Notes: a model not told the origin generated them from the letters alone. Shown: positions 7,728 to 62,906, counted from the first letter of the stretch. The stretch: DNA of 64,000 nucleotides from Deltaproteobacteria bacterium (GCA_007693585.1 REDH01000120.1:1-64000); one strand, 5' to 3'. Numbers and translations are program-made.

Positions 7728-8170
7728 GCCCCGCCGGGGCGGGGAGGAGGCAACTCGCCGGTCCGTCGCCAGTGGAGGTAGTCCCGGACGATCAGCCCGT
7801 GATCGAAGGCCAGGACGACATGCTCGAGATCCGCCAGGGGCCACGGATGCGCCGCGGCTGCGTCGCTGCCGCCGCTCGGCTCTCCCCGGGCGGTCGCCAG
7901 AAAGACGCAGGTGAGGGTGTGTCGCCGGTGGTCCCGCGCAGGGTCGCTGTACACCCCGAAAAGGCGGGTCAGCGTGATGTCGAGGCCGGTCTCCTCGCGC
8001 GCCTCGCGGATGCAGGCGTCCTCGGCACGCTCGCCGTACTCGACGAAGCCGCCCGGCAGGGCGAAGCCGAGTGGCTCGTGCACCCGCTCGATGAGGACGA
8101 TGCGATCTCCGGGAAGCTCGATGATGGCATCCACGGTCGGATACGGGTTTCGCGCGATGTCGTCGTGCAT
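7724..8170 (-). CDS. NUDIX hydrolase
   Basis: A 148-residue protein of the NUDIX family, which hydrolyses nucleoside diphosphates linked to another moiety. The NUDIX box is complete: GFVEYGE, then seven residues, then REAREETGL. The N-terminal NPYPTVDAIIELPGDRIVLIER and the later DPARDHRRHTLTCVFLA resemble ADP-ribose/NADH-pyrophosphatase-like members, but the substrate cannot be fixed from sequence. ATG 8170 gives a standard length; an upstream TTG at 8245 would only add a weakly coding leader. The stop overlaps the start of the HEAT-repeat gene, so the two are probably one transcript. It is divergent from the CPBP protease gene. Confidence 0.93.
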   Translation of the reverse strand: MHDDIARNPYPTVDAIIELPGDRIVLIERVHEPLGFALPGGFVEYGERAEDACIREAREETGLDITLTRLFGVYSDPARDHRRHTLTCVFLATARGEPSGGSDAAAAHPWPLADLEHVVLAFDHGLIVRDYLHWRRTGELPPPRPGGA

Positions 8171-8377
8171 GAAGTGGCCTGTTCCCGGTGCTGCAGGAGG
8201 AACCCAGACCTTGAGCGTATAGCGTGGAGGTCGGAGGTGCCGCAACCGTGAAGCGGGTTGGGCCGGCCCTCTTGTCGACCAGCGGTCGGGCCGCTAGTCC
8301 TGCCCCGCGCCGCGCAGCGGGGCGCGCAGTCCCCGGGATCGGCCGGGATGGGGGACCAGTGAGGAGGGTGTCGCGCA

Positions 8378-9271
8378 ATGAGCAGCGAGGCGGAGCGCAC
8401 GGATCGTCCACCGGTGGGGCTGGGGTGGCTCTGGCTGCTGTGGCGGAAGGTGATCACGATTCCGCGGCGCGAGGCGGATGCGCGGATGGAGGAGGCGCTC
8501 GCCGATCGGGGTGGGCGCGGCGCGCTCGATCGGAAGGTCGTCATCGTTCTCGTGACCACGGCCCTCTGTCTGACGTTCCTCGAGTACGTCGGCATGTCCA
8601 ACCGGTGGCGTGATGCCGCGGCGCTTGCAGACACGCTCGGCTTCCCGGGACTCCACGACTGGCTGCACGCCACCATGGGGTCCTCGCAGGATGCGCGAAT
8701 CAACCGGCTGACCTGGTGGGGGATCGGTTGCTTCGTCGCGTACTTCGTCATCCCCGTGTTCGTGATCCGGGTCGTCCTGCGCGAGAAACTCTCGGACTAC
8801 GGCCTTCGGGCGGGGGACGCCTTTCGCGACGGGTGGATCTACGCCGTCTTCTTCGCGGTCATGATTCCGATCCTCTGGATCGTGTCGCTCGACCCGCACT
8901 TCCAGGAGCAGTACCCCTTCTGGCGCCCAGGCCCCGGAGAGGGGCTGTGGCCGCACTTCTACCGGTGGCAATTCCTCTACCTGCTGCAGTTCTTCGCCCT
9001 CGAGTTCTTCTTCCGCGGGTTCATGGTGCATGGGCTCAAGGACCGCATGGGGTTCCAGGCCGTGCTGGTCATGATGGTCCCCTACTGCATGATCCACTTC
9101 GGCAAGCCGATGGCCGAGACGATCGGTGCGATCATCGCGGGAATCGCCCTCGGCGCGCTCAGCCTGAAGAATCGCAGCATCTGGATGGGGGTCGTCATCC
9201 ACTGCGCGGTGGCCCTGTCGATGGATCTGCTCTCCCTGTGGCGTACCGGCCACCTCGGGTCCTGGGGCTGA
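8378..9271 (+). CDS. CPBP-family intramembrane protease (CAAX/Rce1-like)
   Basis: A 297-residue polytopic membrane protein with hydrophobic segments at about 53-72, 112-134, 153-172, 200-217 and 245-285. The family's conserved region is present: FFALEFFFRGF (Glu209, Arg213), PYCMIHFGKP (His240) and WMGVVIHCAVAL (His275). The usual EExxxR motif is here LExxxR, so the first glutamate is Leu; an EFFFRG variant is compatible with the family but makes activity less certain. Members are glutamic-type intramembrane peptidases or prenyl-protein proteases; the substrate here is unknown. It starts at ATG 8378 and is divergent from the NUDIX gene with about 207 bases between them for promoters. Confidence 0.88.
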   Translation: MSSEAERTDRPPVGLGWLWLLWRKVITIPRREADARMEEALADRGGRGALDRKVVIVLVTTALCLTFLEYVGMSNRWRDAAALADTLGFPGLHDWLHATMGSSQDARINRLTWWGIGCFVAYFVIPVFVIRVVLREKLSDYGLRAGDAFRDGWIYAVFFAVMIPILWIVSLDPHFQEQYPFWRPGPGEGLWPHFYRWQFLYLLQFFALEFFFRGFMVHGLKDRMGFQAVLVMMVPYCMIHFGKPMAETIGAIIAGIALGALSLKNRSIWMGVVIHCAVALSMDLLSLWRTGHLGSWG

Positions 9272-9466
9272 CGCAGGCGTGGGACGCTTCGGCACAATGC
9301 GGCATCGCTGTCACCGACCCTGGTTCTCGGCTCGCTCCGTGGATAGTCGTGCGATCGAGTCGGTCGCCACCGGCTGGCTCGGCAAGCCCGAAACGCAGGT
9401 CATCCTGTCCTGCAGGAGCTCCTCGACGGCACTGCAAACACGCTGCATCGGGCGGTCACAGTCCTC

Positions 9467-9494
9467 TTGACGTTCGTGGGCGTTCTCGGCTAAT
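9467..9494 (+). promoter_or_regulatory. Candidate promoter of tRNA-Cys
   Basis: TTGACG at 9467-9472 and GCTAAT at 9489-9494 are separated by 16 bases and match five and four of six consensus positions for a sigma-70-type promoter. A start near 9501 would be about 14 bases before the tRNA. A similar TTGACG lies upstream of tRNA-Val and rpsA. Confidence 0.45.
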
Positions 9495-9514
9495 CAGCCC
9501 GCTCCCCTTCATGG

Positions 9515-9586
9515 GGGGAGGTGGCCAAGTGGTAAGGCAGCGGCCTGCAAAGCCGCCATTCGCCGGTTCGAATCCGGTCCTCCCCT
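9515..9586 (+). tRNA. tRNA-Cys (anticodon GCA)
   Basis: A full cloverleaf can be drawn: acceptor GGGGAGG (9515-9521) pairs with CCTCCCC (9579-9585), discriminator T at 9586, anticodon stem GCGGC/GCCGC, loop CTGCAAA with anticodon GCA at 9547-9549, and a TTCGAAT T-loop closed by CCGG-type pairs. The 3' CCA is not encoded. Confidence 0.97.
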
Positions 9587-9588
9587 CT

Positions 9589-9618
9589 CGACACCCCCGG
9601 CAACCGCCGGGGGTGTCG
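9589..9618 (+). terminator. Strong hairpin just after tRNA-Cys
   Basis: CGACACCCCCGG (9589-9600) and CCGGGGGTGTCG (9607-9618) are perfect 12-bp arms around a 6-base loop. It begins two bases after the tRNA and probably ends its transcript. No T-run follows, as at other hairpins in this window. Confidence 0.7.
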
Positions 9619-9737
9619 GCCGTCTTGGGCCCTCCCGCAGGGGTGTGACTCGGGACTTGCGTTCGACGCTTCGCCGCTTCACGAAGGGGCGGCGCGCCGA
9701 TGCCCGGTGTCGCCCCCTTCCCCCTGGCGGAGTCCCC

Positions 9738-11408
9738 ATGACCGACATCGCACGGCTGCACGGAGAGCGCATCTGGCTCGTCACCGACGGGACGTCCGAG
9801 CGCGCGGGTTGGCAGGACGAGTTCGTCTCGCTCCTGCGCGAGCGCGGGGCAGCCGCGGTCGATGTGCTCGGTGTTCCCGCCGCCCTCGGCTGGACCGCGC
9901 GGTCCTTCCTCGAGCGCGGCGCCGATCAGGTGGCCAGGGCATTCCGGTTCCTCGGTGGCGCGCGTCCCGAACCGGGAGATCCCGGCTCCGGCACGACCCC
10001 GGGACCGGATCTGGTGCTCCTCGACTCGCCGGATGTGGCCCGCCCGCTCGAGCTGCTCCGCGAGGTCGGCGAGGCCCGTGTGCCAGTCGTCGGGATCGTC
10101 ACGACCTTCGCCTCTCCCCAGCGCTGGAGGGAAGCCCGGGTGCATGCCCTGATCGTGCCTCACCCCGGGTTCATCCCGGCCCTGGGCGAGCGCTTCACCG
10201 AGGGCATGCTGGAAGTCGCCGGGCCACCCGTGGCCGCCTCGCTGCTTCGGAAGCTCGACCGCACCACCCTGCGCTCCGGGCTCGGCTTCGCAACGGATGA
10301 ACGCGTCATCGTGATGGACGCCAGCACCTGGACCCCCGCCACGATCGAGGCGGTCATGGTCCAGCTCCGGGGCGCACCTTCGCCACTCCGTTGCCTCTTC
10401 TTTCACGGTGGGCGTCCGGAGTCCGCCGATGCCCTCCGCGACGCAGCCGCCATCCACGGGGTGCGCGCGGGCATGTTCGGGGACCTCGGCGACGTCGAGG
10501 AGGTGCTCACGGCCGCTGACCTGATCGTCGTGGGAGAAGGGGGGGGGCTCGTGACCCCGTCCGTCGTCCTTGGTCGACCGATGCTGGCCATCGACGGCCG
10601 GGCGGAGATTCCTCCGCTGACCTCCTCTGGAGCGATGTGGTCGATCTCCGGGCCGATGGAACTCTCCAGGGTGTTCGCCGAGGTGGCGTGGGACGGCGTT
10701 CCCGGGACGCTCACCAGCGCAGCCTCGAGCATGGCGCGTCGCGGCGGCTGCCCCGAGGTCGTGAGCGCCGTGGTCCGCCTCGCCTCCCGCCGGTCACAAC
10801 TGCTTCACGCGCCGACTCGCCCGGCGCAGCCGAACGGGCCTGGTGCCCAGCCGGGAGCGGAGCCGGAGAACGCGCGGAGCGCAGGCCGCTTCGAGGAGAT
10901 CGGGGAGCCGACCGCTCGGAGTCGCGCACCCGTCGCCGCAGGCGATGCACGCGACCAGCTCGCGCGCCTCATCATGGAGGAGAAGCAGCTCGAGAACCGG
11001 CTGGCCGACGAGATCCGCGAGCGTGACCGCTGGATGCGACGGCACGAGCTGGCGGCGGGGGAGGACGACCACGAGCTGGCTCGCGTCGCGGAGCAGCGCG
11101 TGCAGGGCCATGCCGCGGTGGTGCGCCAGATCGGCCAGCAGCTCGAGGCGATCGAGGCCCGCAAGGACAGCGTCCGCAAGCGCGTTGCCGGCGTGCGCCG
11201 AGGGGAACAGCCGCCTGGCCCGGCATCGTCCACGTCCGCGGACTCGGCTGTGGAGGATCGCTTCCGGTCGATGGAGGTCGAGCGGGATCTGGACCGCCTC
11301 CGCAGGAGGATGACTGGCGGAGACGACGGATCGTCCACGGAGAGTGGCCGGAGCGAACCGCCATCGAGCGGGGAGGAGAGACCGGGCGGCGGCGAGGAGA
11401 CCTCGTGA
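9738..11408 (+). CDS. GT-B-fold glycosyltransferase-like protein with a C-terminal coiled coil
   Basis: A 556-residue protein. The first 360 or so residues look like two Rossmann-type halves. The second half contains GMFGDLGDVEEVLTAAD, then IVVGEGGGLVTPSVVLGRPM, the pattern of the nucleotide-sugar site in MurG/GT28 and related UDP-GlcNAc-epimerase-like GT-B proteins. The N-terminal GGxGxG-type acceptor loop is not obvious, so catalytic activity is uncertain. After a Pro/Gly-rich linker, residues about 410-520 are highly charged heptad-like sequence (EEKQLENRLADEIRERDR), likely a coiled coil. ATG 9738 is chosen because homology begins there. A nine-G run at 10539-10547 is in frame. The next gene is a flippase-like membrane protein, so a role in glycolipid or polymer synthesis is plausible but inferred. 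Confidence 0.65.
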   Translation: MTDIARLHGERIWLVTDGTSERAGWQDEFVSLLRERGAAAVDVLGVPAALGWTARSFLERGADQVARAFRFLGGARPEPGDPGSGTTPGPDLVLLDSPDVARPLELLREVGEARVPVVGIVTTFASPQRWREARVHALIVPHPGFIPALGERFTEGMLEVAGPPVAASLLRKLDRTTLRSGLGFATDERVIVMDASTWTPATIEAVMVQLRGAPSPLRCLFFHGGRPESADALRDAAAIHGVRAGMFGDLGDVEEVLTAADLIVVGEGGGLVTPSVVLGRPMLAIDGRAEIPPLTSSGAMWSISGPMELSRVFAEVAWDGVPGTLTSAASSMARRGGCPEVVSAVVRLASRRSQLLHAPTRPAQPNGPGAQPGAEPENARSAGRFEEIGEPTARSRAPVAAGDARDQLARLIMEEKQLENRLADEIRERDRWMRRHELAAGEDDHELARVAEQRVQGHAAVVRQIGQQLEAIEARKDSVRKRVAGVRRGEQPPGPASSTSADSAVEDRFRSMEVERDLDRLRRRMTGGDDGSSTESGRSEPPSSGEERPGGGEETS

Positions 11409-50453: not shown

Positions 50454-50573
50454 GTCGCCGTCTTGACCGGCAGCAGGATGCTCTGGCGCCACGAATCGTG
50501 TATGTCGGGTTCGCCGGCCCGGTGTCGGCCATGGCATGGCCACAACCACCCCTCAGCGAGGACGTCCACCGTG

Positions 50574-52049
50574 ATGCCCGCCTTCCTGTCGCCACAGTCT
50601 TCCCACATCGCCCCGCGTGCGCGACCCGTGCGGCCTTCGGGGCACACCCGGGCGTTGTGCATCTTCGTGGGCATGGTGCTCTGGGTTCATCCTGTTCCTG
50701 CCGAAGCAGATGAGCCCTTTCCCCATGACGACCTGGCCCCCAGCGAACGCCCCCTGCTGACGCTCGAGGAGGCCTTCGCGCTTGCCGACCGGCGATCACC
50801 CCTGCAGCGCGCAGCGGCCGCAGGACTTGCGTCGGCGGAGGCCCAGCAGCTCGAGGCGCGAAGAGCACGGCATCCGCGTTTCGAGGCGAACGCGCTTCTC
50901 GCGCCGGTACCAGGCATCGGGGAGGAACAGGAAGACGCCTCGGACATCGAACTTCTCCGGCGCCTCTTCGTCAGCGTGGGGCCCTGGGTTCGGGCGGACG
51001 CCAGTGCCATCGTTCCCCTGAGCACCTTCGGTCGCATCAGAACCCTCCGCGAACTCGCTCAGGTGGGCGTCGACGTGGCACTCATCGAGGAGGAGAACGC
51101 ACGCCTCGTGACGCGACATCAGGTGTATCAGGCCTATGTCGTCCTGCAGTGGTACCGTGAGGTGGACCGGCTGCTGGTCGAGGCCGAGGAACGACTGGAT
51201 CTTGCCGAAGAAGAGCTCGAAGACCGTCTTGACGATGGTGATCGCTCCGCCCGGAATCACCTCCGGCAGCTCACCATCGCCCGAACCGAGCTTGTTCGCC
51301 TCCGCGGCGAGGCCGATCGGGCCGACCTCGTGGCGAGACGGTTGCTGCACAGTGCACTTGGCGTCCCGAGAAACGTGAGGACGGAGCCCCTCGACGAAAG
51401 CCCCGTCGAGGGTGCCGTACCCGACCTTGATGACGTCCTCGAGACCGCGTGGCGAAGTCGACCCGACATGCAGCAGCTGGACTCCGCCGTCGATGCGCGC
51501 CGGCTCCAGACGCAGCTCGAGCGCCGGAGCTGGAGTCCCGACGCTTTCGCTGCGGCGAACATTCGTGGGGCGTGGGCCCCGTCCATCGAGAACCGCGAGG
51601 GACCCTTCGTCTACAACCCCTACAACTCATTCTCCATCGGCGTCGCGGTGGGTTTGCGCTGGCGCATCGACCCATGGGGTCACGCTGCTCGTGTCCAGCG
51701 AACGGATGCCCGGCTCGCCCAGATCGAGGCTCAGCGCGACGGAGCAAGGCTCCTCGTCGAGGGGGATATCGCCGACGCCTGGGTCGTGGCCAGCAATTCG
51801 CTTCGCCTGCTCCAGGCGCAGGAACGGGCGCTTCGCGCAGCGAGGGCGTGGCTCAATCAGGTGTCGTTTCAGTTCGACCAGGGACTGGCCGACTTCGATG
51901 ATCTCATTGAACCCCTGCAGGCCTACTACCGAGAGGCGGGGGCCTGGTGGGAGACGCTCCTGCGGCACCGCCTTGCGGTTGCGGAACTTGCGCTGCAGAC
52001 CGGGCAAGCCGATCTCACCCGATGGCCGTCCGCTGACGATGCGCCTTGA
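50574..52049 (+). CDS. TolC-family outer membrane efflux protein
   Basis: The 491-residue protein has a signal peptide (CIFVGMVLWVHPVPAEA) and two outer-membrane-efflux repeats rich in long alpha helices (LTLEEAFALADRRSPLQRAAA; EAEERLDLAEEELEDRLDDGD), with the expected NPYNSFSIGVAVGLRW-type barrel strands near the middle. It would form the outer-membrane channel of a type I secretion or RND-type export system, but no inner-membrane pump or adaptor gene is in the window. ATG 50574 (or GTG 50571) is chosen to place the signal peptide within 50 residues; frames farther upstream are low complexity. Confidence 0.88.
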   Translation: MPAFLSPQSSHIAPRARPVRPSGHTRALCIFVGMVLWVHPVPAEADEPFPHDDLAPSERPLLTLEEAFALADRRSPLQRAAAAGLASAEAQQLEARRARHPRFEANALLAPVPGIGEEQEDASDIELLRRLFVSVGPWVRADASAIVPLSTFGRIRTLRELAQVGVDVALIEEENARLVTRHQVYQAYVVLQWYREVDRLLVEAEERLDLAEEELEDRLDDGDRSARNHLRQLTIARTELVRLRGEADRADLVARRLLHSALGVPRNVRTEPLDESPVEGAVPDLDDVLETAWRSRPDMQQLDSAVDARRLQTQLERRSWSPDAFAAANIRGAWAPSIENREGPFVYNPYNSFSIGVAVGLRWRIDPWGHAARVQRTDARLAQIEAQRDGARLLVEGDIADAWVVASNSLRLLQAQERALRAARAWLNQVSFQFDQGLADFDDLIEPLQAYYREAGAWWETLLRHRLAVAELALQTGQADLTRWPSADDAP

Positions 52050-52145: not shown

Positions 52146-52799
52146 ATGACGACATCACACCTGACCAGCGCAGTGCCGAGCACCACCCGTCTCCTCGTCC
52201 TCGTGGCGGTCGTCCTTCTCGTTGTCCCCGTCGTCTCGCACGCTGGGGAGACCGAGAGTGAGGCGACACGATTCGTTCAGGAACGTGCAGACCAGGTCAT
52301 CGCCATCGTGAATCGGGAGGCCCCGGACAGCACGGCTCAAGCGCAGCGCGAGCGCGATCTTCAGCGGGCCATTCGCGAGTTCCTGAGCTTCGAACTGCTC
52401 GCCGAGCGAACGCTTGGCTCCCATTGGGAAGAACGAAGCGCCGAGGAGCGGTCACTCTTTGTGGGACTGCTCCGCGAACTCATCGAGACAAGCTACCTTC
52501 GCCGGCTTGGCGGGGACCGTGTGGAGCCGGGCTCGTACACGGTGTCATACGAGTCCGAGCGGGTTCGGCGCTCCCGTGCGACAGTGTCGGGCCGAGTAAC
52601 AGCCCGGGGGGAGACGGCCCATGTCGACGTCCGGATGCAACGCCACGGAGACGGTTGGCTCATCCACGACGTCGTGACGGACGACGTCTCGCTGGAGGAG
52701 AGCTATGCCGAGAGCTTCGACCGAATCCTGCGTGACGAGGGGTGGGAAGCGCTGATTCAGCGCTTGAGGGATCGCATTGCGGAGCTGCGCGAGAGCTGA
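52146..52799 (+). CDS. MlaC/Ttg2D-family periplasmic phospholipid-binding protein
   Basis: A 217-residue protein with signal peptide (LLVLVAVVLLVVPVVSHA). The mature part follows the MlaC fold: ADQVIAIVNRE, FLSFELLAERTLGSHW, RSLFVGLLRELIETSY, then a beta domain ending DGWLIHDVVTDDVSLEESY. MlaC shuttles phospholipid between the outer-membrane complex and the MlaFEDB transporter; the rest of that system is absent here. It follows the TolC-family gene after 96 bases. It is convergent with the FHA genes. Confidence 0.9.
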   Translation: MTTSHLTSAVPSTTRLLVLVAVVLLVVPVVSHAGETESEATRFVQERADQVIAIVNREAPDSTAQAQRERDLQRAIREFLSFELLAERTLGSHWEERSAEERSLFVGLLRELIETSYLRRLGGDRVEPGSYTVSYESERVRRSRATVSGRVTARGETAHVDVRMQRHGDGWLIHDVVTDDVSLEESYAESFDRILRDEGWEALIQRLRDRIAELRES

Positions 52800-52855: not shown

Positions 52856-54373
52856 TCAGCGCGCGCGCGAGGTGGCGCGCGACTGGCGGCGAGACTGCGC
52901 CGCATCGAGTGGCGCGATGGCTCCGGCGCGGTTGTAGAGTTCCGCCGCTCGGGACCACTGCTCTTCCTCGAAGGCATCATCCGCCACCGCGATCAGTGCC
53001 TCACGAAGGCGCGCATTGAGCGTCGCCGGAACGGGTTCATCCGCCTCCGCGAGCAGAGCCGCGGCGCGCTCGAGCGTCTGAAGAGCAGCGGCGTAGTCCC
53101 CGTTCCGCAGCGAGAGTGTACCCAGTTGTCGATACAGGGTGCTCAGAGCGGGATCGATTTGAGTGGCGATTCGCTGCTGGGCCACTTCGTGGCTGGACGA
53201 GGACGTGGGGAGCGCCTCGTGGCACGTTCGTGCATCCTCGTAGGTCTCTGCAGCAACGAGCGTCTGCCCGGAGGCCTCGAGGTTCAGGGCAGCTTCGAGC
53301 TGCGCAGTACAGATCTGCAGCTGCTCGCTCGCGGCGAGCTCGGCCCGTGCTGCCTCCAGCCGCTGCGCCGTATCTCTGGATGGTGCAGCGAGCTGAGCCG
53401 CCTCGAAGGCGGCTACGGCCCCCATCCAGTCCTGCTGATCCATGGCTCGCTCGCCGCGGGACATCTCTGCCATCGCCACTTCGAAGGCGCTCGGCGGATC
53501 CTCCATCCCGGGGCCCGACGGGGCGAGGAGGAGGAGGCCGATCGCACCGGCGATCAGCAGCATGCTGGCGATCGCGGAGACCAGAAGGAGCAGCGTGTTG
53601 CTGCTTCCGCCGGGTGCTTGCGGGCGTGTGACGCTGGTTGTGCTGCCGACCGTCTCCGCGAACCGGAAATTCGTCGGGTCGGTGGTGACGGCGAAGCGTA
53701 TGTCACCGAAGGAGACACGATCCCCTTCTCGAAGTACCATCGCGCGTTCGACGCGGACACCGTTGACCCTGGTGCCGTTGGCCGACCGGTTGTCGACGAG
53801 GACGAAGTGATCGCCCTGGAGTCGCAGGTGAGCGTGGACTCTGGAGACGCTGGGGTCGAGCACCTGCAGCAGGTTCGCGTCCGTTCGGCCCAGCGAGAGT
53901 TCCGTTTCGGACAGCTCGAAGTACTCGCCTTCCAGGTGGTCGCCGAACCGGATGAGGTACCACGGTCGAGCCGGCATCGGGTTGGACGGGCGAGGAGGAG
54001 GGCCGGACGTGGGCAGGGAAGGGGGCAGGGCGGACGGCTGCGAAGGAGCCGAAGGAGCGTCCTGACCCGCAGTGCTCGCGCTGGCGTACTCGACCACGAA
54101 GTCACCGATCACGATGGTGCATTGCGGTGGCAGCAGGACGGGCTGCTGGATGCGCTGGTCCTGCACGAAGATGCCGTTGCTCGACCCGAGATCCTCGATC
54201 GAACACTGAGGTCCCTCGACCCGGATCCTGGCGTGCTTTCGGGACACTGCGCTGGACTCAAGGCGGACGTCGCAGTCGGCCCCTCGTCCGAGGATGACTT
54301 CTCCACGGCTGAACCCGAATTCGTCGACGACCTGACCGCTGGCGTCGAGAATTGTGATGTTGTGTACAATCAT
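52856..54373 (-). CDS. Double-FHA, transmembrane, TPR-like protein
   Basis: A 505-residue protein. FHA domain 1 (residues about 5-95) has ILGRGADCD, SRKHA and SSNGIFV. FHA domain 2 (about 138-230) has LGRTDANLLQ, SRVHAHL and SANGTRVNG. Both keep the phosphothreonine-binding Arg, Ser and Asn positions. A membrane segment at 259-284 (TLLLLVSAIASMLLIAGAIG) is followed by a C-terminal TPR-like helical region (QDWMGAVAAFEAAQLAAPS; NGDYAAALQTLERAAALL). The FHA side is probably cytoplasmic and the TPR side periplasmic. ATG 54373 overlaps the stop of the upstream FHA/pseudo-ATPase gene (TGATG), strongly suggesting that the two products act together. Confidence 0.92.
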   Translation of the reverse strand: MIVHNITILDASGQVVDEFGFSRGEVILGRGADCDVRLESSAVSRKHARIRVEGPQCSIEDLGSSNGIFVQDQRIQQPVLLPPQCTIVIGDFVVEYASASTAGQDAPSAPSQPSALPPSLPTSGPPPRPSNPMPARPWYLIRFGDHLEGEYFELSETELSLGRTDANLLQVLDPSVSRVHAHLRLQGDHFVLVDNRSANGTRVNGVRVERAMVLREGDRVSFGDIRFAVTTDPTNFRFAETVGSTTSVTRPQAPGGSSNTLLLLVSAIASMLLIAGAIGLLLLAPSGPGMEDPPSAFEVAMAEMSRGERAMDQQDWMGAVAAFEAAQLAAPSRDTAQRLEAARAELAASEQLQICTAQLEAALNLEASGQTLVAAETYEDARTCHEALPTSSSSHEVAQQRIATQIDPALSTLYRQLGTLSLRNGDYAAALQTLERAAALLAEADEPVPATLNARLREALIAVADDAFEEEQWSRAAELYNRAGAIAPLDAAQSRRQSRATSRAR

Positions 54374-56274
54374 CAGTTGTTGGCGAGGTCGATTGGTACC
54401 TCAAGGCCGGCCTCACGGGCCTGTGCCACGAATCGCGGTACGTGGCCGGTCGCGCGGTGGCTGAGCGCATCACCGTCGCGCGACACCGAGAGAACCGGGG
54501 CGGCGTGCAGCCCCTGAGGTCCTGCACCGGTCACCTCTGCCACCTCCGTGACCATCAGTCTACCTTCACGGTCTCGAGCGAGAAACACCACCAGGTCGAT
54601 CATCGCGGCGAGTTGCTGACGCACTGCGTGGCCATCCCGGAACTGGCCTTCGAAGGCAAGGATCTCAATCCGGGACAGGGCCTCCGCCGGGGTTCGTGCA
54701 GGGATGGTCAGCAGTGACGAGGCGGTTCGGGACGCACTGCCCATCAGCCAGTCTCCCATCGTGCTCTCGGAGATCGGATCCACGGCGAGGAGCGTGGGCT
54801 GGAGGCCCAGTCCCCGCGACACGGCGGACGGCCAGATGCCGGTCTGCTGTTCGAGGCGAACGACATGACGCTGGTTCTCGCGAAGACGCGTCACTTCCTG
54901 AACCACGATGAAACGCTGATTCGGCAACTCCTCTGCGATCAGCGCTTCGAGGAGCGTCGCCGCATCGGGCAGGTTGCGCGACGACAGGATCATGCTCGCG
55001 CCGGTCTTCAGAGCGCTGCGGAAAAACGCGGCCAGGGCACTCGTCAGGACGCCCTCCGCCACCAGCTCGTCCAGGTCTGGCACCACCATCGGGGGTTGCT
55101 GGATCGACAGCACCGGCTCGCTCACTGCGATCGGCGGCAGCACGAGGTCGATGCGCCCCCCACCCTGCAGGCGCAGCGTTCCACCTCCCGGTTCGACGAG
55201 TTGCCCGAGTTCCCGAATCCGATCCGCGACGGCCCGCCAGCTCCGGGACGAGGCGAACTGCATCGCCGCCTTCTCCAGCCGGCCCGACCGGCGCACCAGG
55301 ATGCCGTCCCAGCCATTGACATGGATCTCGGAGACATCCGGCGCGGACAGGTAAAGCTCGAGCGGACCCATGCCGATGGCCTCCAGACCCACCAGCTCGA
55401 TCAGGCGATCGCGGTCAATGCCGTCAGGCACCGAACCGTCGTGGCTCTCGAAGTGCCGGAGGGCTCGCGTACCGAAATCTCTCACCGTCTCGCTGCGAAG
55501 CGGGCGCAACGGCGGAAGCTCCGGTTCGTTCGTGTCGAGCCACAGTCGGATGACCTCACGTACGCACGCCACCAGCAGATCGTCGCCGTCCGGAACGAGG
55601 TACGACAGTCCGTCCGTCGCACGGGACACCTCCGAGGGCCCCCTGAGCGAGGACGGAGCAGCGCGAAGACCACTGGACTCCAGAGATTCGAGCTCCCCCG
55701 TCGGCTTGCGCCGCGGCTCCGGAGCCGGGGGGACGGCGCCGGTTCGCTCCGTCCGCGATCGAGCCGATGAGCGACCCGCGCCTCCGGGCGGAGGACCAGG
55801 AGGCGCTGGAGGGGCTGTCCTCCGTGCGGCGCCTCCCCCATCCCGCGGAACGGCATCCATGGGAAAGAGGCCGGGCCCGTCACTGCGCTCGCCTCGCGCT
55901 CGTGGCTCGAGACGCTCGATGCCGGACGGGGCCGACGGGGGCACCTCCGCCGACGATGGCTCTGGCGGAATCAGGTCCGCGGCCACGTCGAGTTCCAGCT
56001 GCAGCGCAAAGTCGCCAATCGAGAACCGGTCGCTGCTCGTCACCACCTGCGGAGCCGTGATCTTGCGCCCGTTCACCAGCGTACCGTTCGTACTCTTCAG
56101 ATCGATCAGGATGAAGTCACCGTTCTTCAGAACGAGCCGGGAGTGCCTCTTCGAGATGTTGCTCTGCTTCAGGACGATGTCGTTGCCCGCGACACGCCCG
56201 ATCGACACCTCCGTCTGATCGAAGGTATATCGCTCAGGCTGCTGCCCCGGACCCGTGACCGTGATGCTGAACAT
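54373..56274 (-). CDS. FHA domain fused to a CpaF/TadA-like secretion ATPase with lost catalytic motifs
   Basis: A 633-residue protein. An FHA domain is at the N-terminus (EVSIGRVAGND, SKRHSRL, STNGTLVNG), followed by about 130 disordered Pro/Gly/Ser-rich residues, then from about residue 285 a CpaF/TadA-like region: LEAIGMGPLELYLSAPDVSE, EIHVNGWDGILVRRSGRLEK, GGGRIDLVLPP. Walker A should be GGTGSGKTTL but residues 430-442 read LSSRNLPDAATLL. The acidic box is VVQEVTRL, HVVRLE is kept, the Walker B segment (493-503) reads PTLLAVDPISE instead of xxIIVGExRG, and the TxHAN box is TIPAR, followed by the kept AEALSRIE. So it is almost certainly unable to hydrolyse ATP. ATG 56274 follows GGGAG. Confidence 0.9.
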   Translation of the reverse strand: MFSITVTGPGQQPERYTFDQTEVSIGRVAGNDIVLKQSNISKRHSRLVLKNGDFILIDLKSTNGTLVNGRKITAPQVVTSSDRFSIGDFALQLELDVAADLIPPEPSSAEVPPSAPSGIERLEPRARGERSDGPGLFPMDAVPRDGGGAARRTAPPAPPGPPPGGAGRSSARSRTERTGAVPPAPEPRRKPTGELESLESSGLRAAPSSLRGPSEVSRATDGLSYLVPDGDDLLVACVREVIRLWLDTNEPELPPLRPLRSETVRDFGTRALRHFESHDGSVPDGIDRDRLIELVGLEAIGMGPLELYLSAPDVSEIHVNGWDGILVRRSGRLEKAAMQFASSRSWRAVADRIRELGQLVEPGGGTLRLQGGGRIDLVLPPIAVSEPVLSIQQPPMVVPDLDELVAEGVLTSALAAFFRSALKTGASMILSSRNLPDAATLLEALIAEELPNQRFIVVQEVTRLRENQRHVVRLEQQTGIWPSAVSRGLGLQPTLLAVDPISESTMGDWLMGSASRTASSLLTIPARTPAEALSRIEILAFEGQFRDGHAVRQQLAAMIDLVVFLARDREGRLMVTEVAEVTGAGPQGLHAAPVLSVSRDGDALSHRATGHVPRFVAQAREAGLEVPIDLANN

Positions 56275-56416
56275 GGACTGCTGCTCCCTTGTGATGCGGT
56301 CGAACATGCCTCGCCGCCGCTAGGATTCGGACCTCGCCTGATCTAGAGATGCAACCTGGGCTCGGTCAAGATGGCCGAGGTCCCAGGACACTCTCGCACT
56401 CTCCCCCGGCGCAACC

Positions 56417-57319
56417 ATGACCGACGCGCTCCTCTTCGACATGGACGGCGTACTCGTCGATACCACAGCATCGTACCGGCACGCCATCCTCGCCTGCTTT
56501 CGCCACATCGCAGCCGACCTCCCCGCCAACCTTCGCGACGCCTGGGCCACCGCGGAGACACTCCGCACCTTCAAGGCCGCGTCCGGCTTCAACAACGACT
56601 GGTGCCTCACCGAGGCGCTCGTCCTCATCGCATCCACCCCGGAACCGCGCCTCGCCGACCCCGTGACGCTTCCGCGAACCCTCGCCCGCGCCGCAACCCT
56701 CGCCCCCGGGCTCGAGGGCGTGCGTCGCCTCCTCGGCCAGCCCGCCGATCAACCTCTCCCCGGAACCGCGCCCATGTCCCCCCTCGTCGCCGTCTTCCAG
56801 TCGGCCTATCTCGGCAGGGACCTCCTCGCTCGTCTCCACCCCGGCACGCCCTACACCCCAATCGCCCGCGAGGACGGTCTCATCCGCACAGAGACCCTCC
56901 TCGTGTCCTCGGAGCGCATCGGGCTCGCAGCCGCCCGCTTCCGACTCGGCATCGCCACCGGACGTCCACGCGGAGAGGCCCTCTTCGCGCTCGAACACCA
57001 CCGCATCGAACACTTCGACGCCGTCGTGACCCACGACGATGTGCTGGAAGCCAGCCGCAGGGATACCGACGTCGCCGGCAAACCCCATCCCTGGCCTCTC
57101 CTCGAGGCGCTCCGCCAGCTCGACGTTCCCCCGGAACGATGCCTCGGCTACCTGGGCGACCTCCCGGACGACATGCGCGCAGCGACGGCCGCAACGGTTC
57201 CCGGGCTGGGGATCGCGCCCGCCGAACACCACCCCGCCCTGGCCGCCGCAGGCGCCATGCGCACCTTTCGCTCCACCGACGAAGCCCTCGGAATGCTCCT
57301 CGAACCCCTCGTCGCCTGA
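56417..57319 (+). CDS. HAD-superfamily hydrolase, subfamily IA-like
   Basis: A 300-residue phosphatase-like protein. Motif I FDMDGVLVDT (Asp8, Asp10) is at the extreme N-terminus, motif II is ATGRPRG and motif III/IV region is DVAGKPHPWPLLEAL and GYLGDLPDDMRAA. The FKAASGFNNDW segment in the cap is like that of a group of HAD proteins sometimes fused or linked to histidine-pathway enzymes, but the substrate is not known. ATG 56417 follows the divergent FHA gene start by about 140 bases; convergent with the ABC importer operon. Confidence 0.87.
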   Translation: MTDALLFDMDGVLVDTTASYRHAILACFRHIAADLPANLRDAWATAETLRTFKAASGFNNDWCLTEALVLIASTPEPRLADPVTLPRTLARAATLAPGLEGVRRLLGQPADQPLPGTAPMSPLVAVFQSAYLGRDLLARLHPGTPYTPIAREDGLIRTETLLVSSERIGLAAARFRLGIATGRPRGEALFALEHHRIEHFDAVVTHDDVLEASRRDTDVAGKPHPWPLLEALRQLDVPPERCLGYLGDLPDDMRAATAATVPGLGIAPAEHHPALAAAGAMRTFRSTDEALGMLLEPLVA

Positions 57320-57326
57320 CGCGACT

Positions 57327-58733
57327 TCAGCCGTCCTTCCCGGAGCCCGAATCCGCTGCGTCCGTTGCGCCGTCGAGCGGTTCCGCCCCGTCCTTCGGGT
57401 CATCCGCCGGCGCCTCCACCGCGTGCGCGACTGCCGACGATGACTCCGGCATCGCCTCCGCGCGTCGTGCCCGCTCCAGCGCGCTGGCCCCCGCAAGGTC
57501 CGCCGCGGACGGATCCAGCACCGGCAGCGTGCCCGTCGACCGCGCCACCGCCTCGACCACGTCCTGAACCCGCTCCTCGATCGAACCGGCTTCATCCGCG
57601 GAAACCGCAGACACGGGGGGCTCGTGAGCCGGCTCGCCACGTCGCCGCGCGCTGCGTCCACCGGTCATCGTCAGGTTCGCGCCGGCCTTCACCAGCGCCG
57701 CCACCTGCGACTGGGCCTGCGCGACCGAGAGACCGGCGCGCGACGGCTCCGTGTACAGGTGGCACGCGACCAGATGGCCGGAAGCCACCTCCGCCAGCTC
57801 GGGCTCCTCGTTCCGACAGCGCCCGAACGCGGCCGGACAGCGCGTGTGGAATCGACATCCGCTCGGCGGATTGATCGGGGTGGGCACGTCCCCGGACAGG
57901 ATGATCCGCTCACGAACCAGCGTGGGATCCGGTTCCGGGATCGCAGACAGCAGCGCCTGCGTGTACGGGTGGGCGGGGTGCCGATACAGCTCGTCGCACT
58001 CCGCAATCTCCACAATCTTGCCCAGGTACATCACCGCCACCCGGTTCGAGATGTGGCGGACCACGCTGAGATCGTGGGCGATGAACAGGTAGGAGAGCTG
58101 GTACTCCTCCTGCAGATCCTGCAGCAGATTGATCACCTGGGCCTGCACGGACACGTCCAGCGCAGACACGGCCTCGTCGCACACGATGAACTCGGGAGCC
58201 AGCGCGAGGGCCCGGGCGATACCGATGCGCTGGCGCTGCCCACCAGAGAACTCGTGCGGATACCGGCTCACGTAGCTGCCCTGAAGTCCCACGCGCTCGA
58301 GCAGCGCCTTGACCCGATCCCGGACCTCGTACTGCGTGCAAACGCCGTGAATCTGCATCGCCTCGCCGATGAGGTTCTCGACCGTCATGCGCGGGTTCAG
58401 GCTGCTGAACGGATCCTGAAAGATGATCTGGAGGTTGCGGCGCGCGGCGCGCAGCTCCCGCTGAGGGAGCTGGAACAGGTCCCGCCCCTTGTACCGGGCC
58501 GTCCCGCCAGAAGGCTCGATCAGCCGAAGGAGCGACCGCCCGGCGGTTGTCTTGCCGCAACCCGACTCCCCCACCAGACCCAGGGTCTCGTTGGGAAAGA
58601 TGTCGAAGCTCAGGTCGTCGACGGCCTTCACATGGCCGGCGATCCGGGACAGGATTCCCTTCCGGATGGGGAAGTGCTTCCTGAGTCCGCGGACTTCGAT
58701 GAGCGGTTCCGATCCGCGTTCGGGCATGAGCAT
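57327..58733 (-). CDS. Oligopeptide/dipeptide ABC transporter ATP-binding protein (OppF/DppF-like)
   Basis: The second ATPase of a peptide importer. Walker [11 protein letters not shown]-loop [12 protein letters not shown], signature FSGGQRQRI and Walker [13 protein letters not shown] are present. The Oligo_HPY C-terminus ([12 protein letters not shown], then CRNEEPEL) has the four-cysteine pattern that binds a [4Fe-4S] cluster in related importers. About 140 extra disordered residues follow (Ala/Glu/Ser-rich), unlike typical members of about 330 residues. It begins at ATG 58733 or 58727, 24 bases after the previous gene. Last gene of the operon. Confidence 0.95.
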
Positions 58734-58757
58734 CCAGTTGGGACAGGGGAGGGGAAT

Positions 58758-59840
58758 TCAGGGGCCGTCGACGGTCTCGCCGAAACCCTCGGGGGTGATG
58801 AGCTTCGTGACGGTCCGGCCATCGATGAAGGGGCCGGTCTCCTCCTTCGTTCCGGCGAACACCTCGTCGACATAGTGACACGCGACCTGGTGCCCCTTGC
58901 CGATGTCCACCAGCGGCGGCTCGCTGCTCGAACACTCCGCCGTCGCGAAGGGACAGCGCGTGCGAAAGCGACATCCCGACGGGAACTGCAACGGCGAGGG
59001 GACCATGCCCGGAATCGTGGGCAACCGACTGCCCCGCTTCGCTCCGACATTCGGAAGGGAACGGAACAGCCCGATCGTGTACGGATGACGCGGCTCCGCG
59101 AACAGCGTCTCCACATCCGCGTACTCGACCACCTTCCCCGCGTACATCACGGCGACGTGGTCCGACACCTCGGCCACCACCCCCAGATCGTGGGTGATCA
59201 TCAGGATGCTCATGCCGTACTCGTCCTGCAGCTCGTTCAGCAGGTCGAGGATCTGCGCCTGGATCGTCACGTCCAGCGCCGTCGTCGGCTCGTCCGCGAT
59301 CAGCAGGTCCGGCTTGCAGACCAGCGCCATCGCGATCATCACGCGCTGCTTCATGCCGCCCGACATCTGGTGCGGATATTCGTCCACCCGCTCCCGCGGG
59401 GACGGGATACCCACCCGATCCAGCATCTCGATCGCCAGCTCCCGCGCCTCCTTCGGTGGCAACCGAAGATGGAGGTCGATGCTCTCGATGATCTGGTTGC
59501 CCACCGTGTACACCGGGTTCAGGCTCGTCATCGGCTCCTGGAAGATCATGCCGATGCGGTTGCCCCTGATCCGCCGCATCTCCGGCTCGGGGAGGCGCGT
59601 CAGGTCCTTGCCGTTGAACAGAATCCGACCCGACACGGTACGCCCGGGAGGGCTCGGGATCAGCCGCATCACCGACAGCGCGGTGACGCTCTTTCCGCAG
59701 CCGGATTCACCGACCACCCCGAGGGTCGACCCGCGATGGACGCGGTAGGTCACCCCGTCGACGCTGGGGACGATGCCCGCGTCGGTGAAGAACCACGTCC
59801 GCACGTCGTCGAGCTCGAGGAGGATGTCGTTGCTGCCCAT
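58758..59840 (-). CDS. Oligopeptide/dipeptide ABC transporter ATP-binding protein (OppD/DppD-like)
   Basis: A 360-residue ATPase, usual length. Walker [28 protein letters not shown], signature MSGGMKQRV and Walker [13 protein letters not shown] are all present, with the Oligo_HPY tail carrying the Cys pattern ([17 protein letters not shown]). It pairs with the OppF-like protein to power the importer. ATG 59840 follows GGGAGCAGGA; it lies 24 bases downstream of the permease gene. Confidence 0.96.
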
Positions 59841-59864
59841 GGTGGTGTCCTGCTCCCGGAGTCT

Positions 59865-61082
59865 CTACTTGCGCAGCTTCGGATCGAGAGCGTCCCGGAT
59901 GCCCTCACCGGCCATGTTGAACGCCGAGACCGTGACGAAGATGGCAAAGCCGGCGATCAGCATCATCTGCGTGTCGCTGGTCGAACGCCCGAAGGCCAGA
60001 ATGCGGCCCCAGGAGGGCAGCGTCGGATCGCCGAAACCGAGGAAGCTCAGGGTGCTCTCGATGAGCACCGCCGAGGCGACGCCGAACGTGGCGTTGACGA
60101 GCACGGGGCCCATCGCGTTCGGCAGGATGTGTCGAAAGATGATGCGCGTGTTCGACAGGCCGAGGGCACGGGCCGCGGCCACGAAGTCGATGTTTCTCAG
60201 CCGCAGGAACTCGCCCCGAACCAGCCGGGCGGGGCCGGTCCACCCGATCAGACCGATGATGACCATCACCCAGGCGATGCTGGGCTGATCCAGGAACCCG
60301 ATGAAGGTCAGGATGAGGAAGAACGCGGGAAAGCACAGGAAGATCTCGATCAGGCGCACCACCACGATGTCCGTCCGGCCGCCGAAGTACCCAGCGATTG
60401 ATCCGAGGACGATCCCGATCGTGATGTAGATGCTCACCGCGATGACGCCGATGCTCAGCGACACCCGCGTTCCGTAGAGCAGCCGGACGAAGATGTCGCG
60501 ACCGGCGTTGTCCTGTCCCAGCACATGGACGATGCCGGGCCCCGTCACGCCGTGAAGCGTATCCTCGTAATGGATCCGCAACGGTGGGAAGAGGGCGAAG
60601 CCGCTCTCCAGTCCTGCAGCCGCAAACTCCCGGTACTCCGGAAGCGCCGTCCGCGGCTCCGTCAGCATCAGCCCGATGAACGCGGCCAGGATGATCAGGT
60701 TCCAGAACAGCAGGTGCTGGCGGTGAAGTCGCGCCGCATCCGAGACCTTCATGCTCCGCGCCCGGGTCCGGATGAGCAGGAAGCTCACGAGCAGCGCCGG
60801 GCTCAGCACCAGCAACAGGTTGAAGAACAGGTCCACCCCGTTCTCGAACACGTTGCGGTTGAACAGCAGCGACGAGAACCAGGGGAACGACAGCCCTCCG
60901 TCGCTCCCCCTCCAGACGAACGGCTGGCTGCTCGAAAACACCGGGGCGTAGATGGCCAGCGCGAACAGACCGAAGATCAGCCACATCGCCCAGTAGCTGC
61001 TCCGCTGCTTGCGGAACTGCTCCCAGACGATGGCCCAGTAGGATGCGTACTCGCGATACGCCTTGTCGGAGGAGGTCGCCAT
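59865..61082 (-). CDS. Peptide ABC transporter permease (OppC/DppC-like)
   Basis: A 405-residue inner-membrane permease. The core starts at LGQDNAGRDIFVRLLYGTRVSLSIG and includes the EAA loop (EFLRLRNIDFVAAARALGLS) and the LESTLSFLGFGDPTLPSWG-like end. The N-terminal 200 residues are longer than in typical members: besides TM1 (MWLIFGLFALAIYAPVF) there are two additional hydrophobic segments (LFFNLLLVLSPALLVSFLLI and WNLIILAAFIGLMLT). ATG 61082; six bases after the OppB-like gene. Confidence 0.95.
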   Translation of the reverse strand: MATSSDKAYREYASYWAIVWEQFRKQRSSYWAMWLIFGLFALAIYAPVFSSSQPFVWRGSDGGLSFPWFSSLLFNRNVFENGVDLFFNLLLVLSPALLVSFLLIRTRARSMKVSDAARLHRQHLLFWNLIILAAFIGLMLTEPRTALPEYREFAAAGLESGFALFPPLRIHYEDTLHGVTGPGIVHVLGQDNAGRDIFVRLLYGTRVSLSIGVIAVSIYITIGIVLGSIAGYFGGRTDIVVVRLIEIFLCFPAFFLILTFIGFLDQPSIAWVMVIIGLIGWTGPARLVRGEFLRLRNIDFVAAARALGLSNTRIIFRHILPNAMGPVLVNATFGVASAVLIESTLSFLGFGDPTLPSWGRILAFGRSTSDTQMMLIAGFAIFVTVSAFNMAGEGIRDALDPKLRK

Positions 61083-61088
61083 GTCTCC

Positions 61089-62906
61089 TCAGTCGAAGCT
61101 GATGCGAGGGTCCACCAGCGCGTACGAGATGTCGCTCAGGAGGATGCCCACGAGGGTGAGGATGCTCGACAGGAGCAGGATGCCCATGATCACGTTGTAA
61201 TCCCGGAAGAAGATGCTCCCGATCATCAGGGACCCCATCCCCTCGATCACGAAGATGTACTCGATGACGATGGAACCCCCGATCAGCACGGGCAGGGTGG
61301 TGCCCAGCAGCGTCAGGATCGGGATCATTCCGTTCCGCACGGCGTGCTTCATGATGACGACCCACTCGGACAGCCCCTTGGCCCGCGCCGTTCTGATGTA
61401 GTCCGAGCGGATCACGTCCAGCAGGCCGGTGCGCGCGTACCGCGACAGCACGGCCAGGGACATGTAGGTCAGGCAGATGACCGGCAGGACCATGTGCCAG
61501 AGCGTGTTCGTCAGCAGCTCCCAGGTGGTCACCTCGATGGCCTCCACGCTGTTGAAGCCGCTGACCGGGAAGACTGCGAAGAAGTTGATCACCTTGCCGA
61601 TGAAACTGTCGGCATCGAGCGGGCTGGCCGGTGTCAGGTAGGTCTGCGCCAGCGTCGCCACGAAGAAGCTCGGCAGACTGTACAGCACGAAGAGGGCGAT
61701 CCCCACGCCCCGATCGGCGAAGGTGTTCTGTTTCACCGCGGCGAGAATACCGATGGGAACACTGATGAAATACGCGAGGAGCAACGACATCACGCTGAGG
61801 TACACGCTGTACATCCAGTGCTCACCGATGACCTGCATCACCGGTCGCCGGTATCGGATGGAGGTGCCGAAATCGAGGCGGGCGAGGTTCGCCCAGTAGG
61901 CGGCGAAGCGGGTGTCGAGAAACACGGAGCCCAGCGTCTGCAGCCCGGTGCGCTCGTAGCGAATGGACGCCTCCTCCCACCATCCCTCCCACTCCGCCAG
62001 GATCTCCTGCTGCCGCTCCGGAGAATCGCCCAGCGACCACGTCCACTGGGAGATCCGGTTGTTCTCGCTCACGATCATCCGGTTGGCCGCGCGTTGCTCC
62101 TCGGTGCCCCGCTCGCCATCCCGGATCAGCACCCGACGGCGCGCATTCACGGACAGCCGCTGCACCGCGAGGAAGCGGACCTTGTCCGTCAGGGTCGTGT
62201 GCACCCTCCAGTTCTCCCCCCGCCACTCCACCGAACCCGACCGGGTCGACGGGTCCAGCCCCAGCGTCTCGGCGAGGATCCCGACCCCGTCCAGCCAGGG
62301 TGAGTCCACGTCGTCCCGATAGATCCACACGTACGAGCGGCTGATGGCGAGCAGCTCGGGAACGATCGCGTGCCCCCAGTCCTCCAGCCGCTCTTCGGAA
62401 TCGAAGATGGCCCCCTGAGCGGGGCGGGGAGGGCGCCGGGGATCGATCGTGCGAAAGCCGACCTCCTGCTGCCGGCGCTGCAACGCGGCGCGCTCGTCCG
62501 GATCCAGGTCGGGATCCGCGAGCTCACGGGCCAATGCATGGAAAGGCTCGTTGACGATGTCGGCCACCACACCCGCCGCCGTACGCCCCACGGCGAAGGC
62601 CTCCCGCTCTCCCGGGATCGTCCCGCTGAGGTTGCGCGCCACCACCTCGAGGTGACGCATCACGTTGTCCTCGTCCAGGAGGAACCGGAAGTTCAGGATG
62701 ATGGGGAGGTCGAGGTTGTACTGCTCCTTGAACAGCCGATACCCCTCGCGCGCCGCAGCGCTCTGGTCGGCCTGCTCGCTGCCGCTCGCGCTGGCCGCCT
62801 GGCCCGCGGTGCCCGGGGCGAGGTTGATCATCACGAAGACGAGCAGCGTGATGAGCAGGAACGTCGGCACCATCAACAGGAGCCGCTTGAGAATGTACTG
62901 CGTCAT
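61089..62906 (-). CDS. Peptide ABC transporter permease (OppB/DppB-like) with a large insertion
   Basis: At 605 residues it is about twice the usual 300-330. TM1 (LLLMVPTFLLITLLVFVMINLAP) and the lead-in FKEQYNLDLPI are normal; then about 260 extra hydrophilic residues (about 75-335, bases 61902-62684) intervene before the conserved LARLDFGTSIRYRRPV and the five-helix core with the EAA loop (SDYIRTARAKGLSEW). By topology the insert is extracytoplasmic, facing the binding protein. It has no motif I recognise. ATG 62906, 22 bases after the SBP gene. Confidence 0.94.
   Translation of the reverse strand: MTQYILKRLLLMVPTFLLITLLVFVMINLAPGTAGQAASASGSEQADQSAAAREGYRLFKEQYNLDLPIILNFRFLLDEDNVMRHLEVVARNLSGTIPGEREAFAVGRTAAGVVADIVNEPFHALARELADPDLDPDERAALQRRQQEVGFRTIDPRRPPRPAQGAIFDSEERLEDWGHAIVPELLAISRSYVWIYRDDVDSPWLDGVGILAETLGLDPSTRSGSVEWRGENWRVHTTLTDKVRFLAVQRLSVNARRRVLIRDGERGTEEQRAANRMIVSENNRISQWTWSLGDSPERQQEILAEWEGWWEEASIRYERTGLQTLGSVFLDTRFAAYWANLARLDFGTSIRYRRPVMQVIGEHWMYSVYLSVMSLLLAYFISVPIGILAAVKQNTFADRGVGIALFVLYSLPSFFVATLAQTYLTPASPLDADSFIGKVINFFAVFPVSGFNSVEAIEVTTWELLTNTLWHMVLPVICLTYMSLAVLSRYARTGLLDVIRSDYIRTARAKGLSEWVVIMKHAVRNGMIPILTLLGTTLPVLIGGSIVIEYIFVIEGMGSLMIGSIFFRDYNVIMGILLLSSILTLVGILLSDISYALVDPRISFD

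Follow-up and report, generated by a model that had tools for sequence, protein, structure and literature searches.

What becomes of a secretion motor whose nucleotide-handling motifs have all been replaced? The question is raised by one gene of a 64,000-nucleotide stretch from a Deltaproteobacteria bacterium (GCA_007693585.1 REDH01000120.1:1-64000; the window refers to this whole stretch). The gene, designated FHA-pseudoCpaF, encodes an FHA domain fused to a true homologue of the pilus motor CpaF/TadA. On balance, and with modest confidence, its product is read as a retired Tad/Kil-type motor (FHA-CpaF) that became a pseudo-ATPase and would serve at the inner membrane as a scaffold dependent on phosphothreonine rather than drive a pilus. 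Pseudo-kinases and other dead enzymes are well-known regulators.

A CpaF/TadA homologue without nucleotide-handling motifs

The longest open reading frame (54373-56307, minus strand; 644 amino acids) has no internal stop. Its translation start is probably Met12 (position 56274), since relatives begin with MF-S/T-VTISEKGG. The gene and the parts that it encodes are the following.

54373..56274, minus strand: FHA-pseudoCpaF gene, 633 amino acids from Met12
55990..56274, minus strand: FHA domain, residues 12-106; pocket residues R38, S52, H55 and N74 intact
55588..55989, minus strand: Pro/Ser-rich linker, residues 107-240, probably disordered; predicted local distance difference test score (pLDDT) mostly <50
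55099..55581, minus strand: CpaF-type N-terminal region, residues 243-403; R379 and R385 are the kept equivalents of CpaF R217 and R223
54385..55098, minus strand: RecA-like CpaF core and tail, residues 404-641, catalytically degenerate
54949..54987, minus strand: Walker A position, LSSRNLPDAATLL; equivalents of K287 and T288 are Ala
54883..54912, minus strand: Asp-box position, FIVVQEVTRL; equivalent of E312 is Gln
54811..54858, minus strand: central (pore) loop region, shorter than in canonical CpaF
54766..54810, minus strand: trans-arginine-finger helix and Walker B position, LGLQPTLLAVDPISE; R347 replaced by Gly, E357 by Pro
54688..54717, minus strand: His-box position, SLLTIPARTP; His replaced by Pro

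The FHA domain was detected at residues 34-98 (Pfam PF00498, E=5.7e-17). Residues ~298-637 align with the CpaF chains 8rkd, 8rjf and 9e24 (phmmer, E=3e-23 to 4.5e-23). Among NCBIfam profiles, the TadA model TIGR03819 matches best (3e-28, under its curated cut-off); Pfam T2SSE (PF00437) gives no match to the protein, as a loss of nucleotide motifs would predict. The AlphaFold2 model has a mean pLDDT of 77 (~85-95 across most of the CpaF part) and is confident for most of residues 240-640; canonical CpaFs were included in its input alignment, so the model is not independent of homology. Its top Foldseek matches are CpaF/TadA structures (E=5.8e-27), and its FHA part matches the FHA structures of GarA/OdhI. 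An earlier note on this DNA had claimed the CpaF/TadA alignment from the sequence by eye; the match to CpaF chains and the predicted fold both uphold it, and the structure prediction proposed there as a check does not refute it.

The active-site residues considered are those whose roles are described for CpaF of Caulobacter crescentus (PMC12019362, PMC11300603). At the aligned positions of the window protein, K287 and T288 are both replaced by Ala, E312 of the Asp box by Gln, E357 of Walker B by Pro, the His of the His box by Pro and R347, the trans-arginine finger, by Gly; the claim that Walker A, Walker B, the acidic box and the His box are all replaced is therefore borne out. The arginines R217 and R223 of the N-terminal domain (NTD) remain Arg. 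No GK pair is found along the entire protein, and the Walker A pattern GxxxxGK[ST] is absent. Walker motifs at shifted positions were considered and ruled out, the protein being devoid of any GK. In the model, a strand (439-443) and a helix (446-458) border the P-loop position, as in CpaF. Relatives of the same family (genomes G001, G003 and G004) carry VSSPNRSLATSFI where the P-loop would be. The survey of homologues called for in the earlier note thus turned up no shifted but functional motifs; the motifs are lost where they align with CpaF, and all three of these relatives share the loss.

Conservation and descent of the family

The class search covered 57 genomes, 52 of which had a match (canonical CpaFs counted too). 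A single-sequence scan of genome contigs gave no match; an alignment-based scan gave 56 loci. The phylum sample consisted of 58 genomes (Bradymonadales/Myxococcota), and its members sit in the taxonomic families f12, f14, f16 and f21. The aligned set includes 50 class proteins (that of the window among them) and 15 full-length phylum members, 65 in all; 15 canonical CpaFs served for comparison.

The Walker Lys is gone in 29/29 members of f1, f2, f3, f4, f6 and f7 and is missing in 14 of the 15 phylum members. The family f5 keeps it in 17/21 and has lost it in 4/21, with the Walker B Glu kept in 16. Overall, 18 of the 65 proteins retain the Walker A Lys; Lys and trans-arginine finger are both present in 1/65, versus 15/15 canonical CpaFs. 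Substitutions vary by lineage (R, A, Q, N, S, T, V, G), which fits loss, not one new chemistry. Two patterns were recorded beside these counts: the f5 members L145-L161 retain Walker A and have lost the trans-arginine finger (A/S/Q/G); f7 is the reciprocal of f5 (Arg retained, Walker Lys replaced by Arg), a pattern into which no mechanism is read.

In a tree built without the motif columns, the family stands apart from all canonical CpaFs (Shimodaira-Hasegawa-like approximate likelihood ratio test, SH-aLRT, 99). Every taxonomic family forms one clade, as expected under vertical descent; the phylum members, which have long branches, are to be read cautiously. Parsimony with regain allowed gives 4 changes of the Walker Lys state. 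Loss-only counting gives 5 losses if an ambiguous f12 row (GPNGVGKRT) is scored lost and 10 if it is scored kept, the number being unsure owing to weak forks and long branches; by such counting, the Walker Lys would have been lost independently about five times. The FHA domain supports the separation from canonical CpaFs independently: its identity is 56% among family members, 50% when phylum members are compared with class members and 26% with canonical FHA-bearing relatives. A Lys specific to the family, found after the pocket Ser in all covered rows where canonical ones mostly have Arg, points the same way. The FHA-only tree was too short for resolution and gave no single clean split; FHA identity is used as support for this reason.

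The segment that joins the conserved RLE to the arginine-finger helix and contains the central loop is 21 residues long in 15/15 canonical CpaFs and 9-20 residues long in 65/65 family members. In C. crescentus CpaF, this central loop is positioned against CpaG/CpaH, and its mutation inhibits infection by a Tad-pilus phage (PMC11300603). Since the loop is short in all members, including those with an intact P-loop, its shortening suggests that uncoupling from the platform preceded loss of the ATP site.

The FHA pocket (R38, S52, H55, N74) is intact in 53/53 testable rows, the single departing row being poorly covered. With these four residues and an FHA fold, the domain has an intact predicted phosphothreonine pocket. 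It is the most conserved part of the family (mean pairwise identity of 56%, against 29% in the RecA-like core), whereas the RecA-like core of canonical CpaFs has a mean identity of 53%; selection therefore appears to have moved from the motor to the reader. The ratio of nonsynonymous to synonymous substitution rates (dN/dS) is 0.01-0.09 in the FHA domain, 0.03-0.36 in the degenerate NTD and C-terminal domain (11 pairs of degenerate relatives) and 0.10-0.31 in the RecA-like core of three same-family genomes. The degenerate domains are thus under purifying selection despite motif loss, as befits a pseudo-ATPase. These values and class-wide retention back the view, already taken from the intact frame, that decay is unlikely.

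Partner gene, locus and possible roles

The pseudoCpaF gene is followed by a gene encoding a second FHA protein, with a transmembrane (TM) segment and TPRs. The partner and the other neighbours are the following.

52856..54373, minus strand: partner FHA-FHA-TM-TPR, 505 amino acids; its ATG overlaps the pseudoCpaF stop by one base (TGATG)
54104..54298, minus strand: partner FHA1, residues 26-90; pocket R/S/H in 55/55, N in 54/55
53684..53932, minus strand: partner FHA2, residues ~148-230
53537..53593, minus strand: partner TM segment, residues 261-279; mean hydropathy 2.48
50463..52049, plus strand: TolC-like outer membrane efflux protein (PF02321), convergent to the pair
52146..52799, plus strand: MlaC (PF05494), convergent to the pair
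57327..62906, minus strand: Opp-type ABC transporter genes OppF, D, C and B, upstream; synteny only

The overlap of stop and ATG means that the two genes are probably translationally coupled. The partner gene follows in 48/50 class loci. One exception, L161, stops at a contig edge; the other, L163 (genome G038), is a real absence, and there MlaC adjoins the FHA-pseudoCpaF gene (~8004-9980). Every f12 and f16 member is likewise followed by the partner, as is the canonical FHA-CpaF of f9; it was not found in f14 and f21 loci. A TM segment comes after the second FHA in every partner examined, and the FHA pockets of the partners are nearly invariant. Partners of f2 and f6 (L179-L195) end just past it, at ~250 amino acids, in a tail-anchored form; FHA-FHA-TM is therefore taken as the core and the TPR part as an addition. 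FHA-pseudoCpaF is no isolated case: loss of the motifs is a trend across the whole family, has happened repeatedly and goes together with a second, membrane-bound FHA protein.

The genome of the window (5 Mb, 97.7% complete) has 9 PilB/GspE/PilT-type matches. No other CpaF was found in it, nor RcpC/CpaB, nor a TadB/TadC platform; T2SSF domains occur solely in two-domain PilC/GspF proteins. Canonical CpaFs co-occur with a family member in f2, f5 and f6; none was found in f1, f3, f4 and f7, which removes a Tad motor and a mixed CpaF ring from the explanations available there. Canonical FHA-CpaFs sit in Tad loci, beside a CpaC-like secretin in L214 and beside RcpC and a T2SSF gene in L062. The latter (L062:9998-20113, from a Myxococcota metagenome-assembled genome) has three FHA-CpaF genes with intact P-loops in one Tad cluster, which also holds RcpC, T2SSF and further FHA proteins. 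The Ser/Thr protein-kinase family has 58 matches in the genome of the window, several of which lie in open frames of >1000 amino acids.

A regulatory or scaffolding use of the motor, as proposed in the earlier note, can be inferred along the following lines. By analogy with CpaF, the CpaF part would still self-assemble, probably as a hexameric ring, and several FHA domains would therefore be displayed on long flexible linkers. These domains could read phosphothreonine marks set by at least one of the cell's numerous Ser/Thr kinases, while the FHA-FHA-TM partner would tether the assembly to the inner membrane. As output, proteins would be recruited or clustered in response to phosphorylation, with neither ATP hydrolysis nor a pilus involved. 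In evolution, shortening of the central loop would have uncoupled the ring from the platform before repeated, independent losses of the ATP site. More tentatively, FHA-pseudoCpaF and FHA-FHA-TM could form a phylum-wide two-protein signalling module derived from a Tad/Kil machine, i.e. an uncoupled ring that lost its ATPase several times and became a multivalent reader with no pilus; this wider proposal is possible, short of probable.

Several points weigh against the scaffold. The kept R217 and R223 make residual binding of a nucleotide or anion conceivable. Most proteins of f5 have retained Walker A, usually along with Walker B, and may bind ATP or hydrolyse it slowly; the scaffold reading is weaker for these motif-keeping proteins. 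No kinase or phosphatase gene was seen adjoining the pair. The f5 counts and the retained NTD arginines are also what favours an unrecognised working ATPase, either with another nucleotide-binding solution or with f5-like proteins as the functional form and the rest as slow variants. This is highly doubtful for a protein devoid of GK that has also lost the Lys, the Thr, both acidic residues, the His and the trans-Arg, with substitutions that differ among lineages as loss predicts; in CpaF, K287A alone abolishes ATPase activity (PMC12019362). A decaying pseudogene or an assembly artefact could account for the poorly conserved core and the absence of every catalytic motif. It is extremely improbable: the frame is intact, the partner and its position are conserved, and purifying selection on the degenerate domain (the dN/dS of the RecA-like core) together with a loss common to three same-family genomes led to its rejection.

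Two further explanations assign the protein to other machinery. As a regulatory subunit, the pseudo-ATPase would join or cap an active hexameric ATPase (CpaF, PilT or PilB/GspE) in a phosphorylation-responsive manner. The pseudo-ATPase has the fold of a hexameric motor, and both the PilB/GspE/PilT-type matches in the genome of the window and the canonical CpaFs of f2, f5 and f6 speak for it; however, a CpaF partner looks unavailable in f1, f3, f4 and f7, mixed rings with distant PilT/PilB are unexpected, and the platform-facing loop is short. A subunit of this kind is unlikely. An improbable role, too, is that of a motor-independent envelope regulator acting with the MlaC-TolC and Opp neighbours, e.g. 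in phosphorylation-controlled lipid or efflux export. In its favour, 32-33 genomes of five families have convergent MlaC and TolC-like genes downstream of the pair; Opp genes are close to it in f1, f4 and f5. The convergent genes are not co-transcribed with the pair, however, and neither f3 nor the phylum members sampled (f12, f14, f16, f21) showed this synteny; the MlaC/TolC neighbourhood is a conserved locus whose shared position may reflect slow rearrangement only. A HAD-type hydrolase gene (56417-57319, plus strand) separates the Opp genes from FHA-pseudoCpaF in the window, and OppF is closer to the pair in f1 and f5 relatives.

The phosphothreonine-dependent scaffold, if correct, would give the many Ser/Thr kinases of Myxococcota-type bacteria a candidate destination for their signals. 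Within the family, proteins range from nearly intact (f5) to fully dead (f1, f6, f16); along this natural series, losing ATPase function, losing contact with the platform and acquiring a signalling use can be compared. The label 'CpaF/KilF ATPase' would mislead for such proteins.

Comparison with known systems

FHA-CpaF fusions are already known from KilF (PMC8460266, PMC12075869). The earlier note was aware of active fusions and not of one with dead motifs; in the open PMC papers searched, no report was found of a conserved pseudo-ATPase branch of type IV filament motors, or of such a branch with an FHA-FHA-TM partner. KilF (Kil system of Myxococcus xanthus, MXAN_3107) is from the same phylum and, like the window protein, has an N-terminal FHA domain joined to CpaF. 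Further FHA proteins are encoded near it (PMC8460266), and it is required for polymerisation of the Kil pilus (PMC12075869). Unlike KilF, the window protein has no catalytic motifs, and its gene is not part of a Tad locus. Same-phylum canonical FHA-CpaFs stood in for KilF in the comparison; the family forms a clade separate from them (SH-aLRT 99), with FHA domains ~26% identical.

CpaF/TadA, the motor of the type IVc (Tad) pilus in Caulobacter crescentus, has the fold (8rjf, 8rkd, 9e24) and sequence homology in common with the window protein. The latter differs by the lack of K287, T288, E312, E357, R347 and the His-box His, by a short central loop and by the additional FHA domain and long linker. 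GarA/OdhI resemble it in an FHA fold with intact phosphothreonine-binding residues; they are small stand-alone FHA proteins, whereas the FHA domain of the window protein is attached to a dead motor and has an FHA-FHA-TM protein as its partner. The f9 FHA-CpaF (G058, L214) has the same gene pair, with a TM protein carrying two FHA domains and TPRs encoded after FHA-CpaF. It differs by intact catalytic motifs and by a preceding CpaC-like secretin gene, i.e. a Tad context, and its arrangement is possibly the ancestral one.

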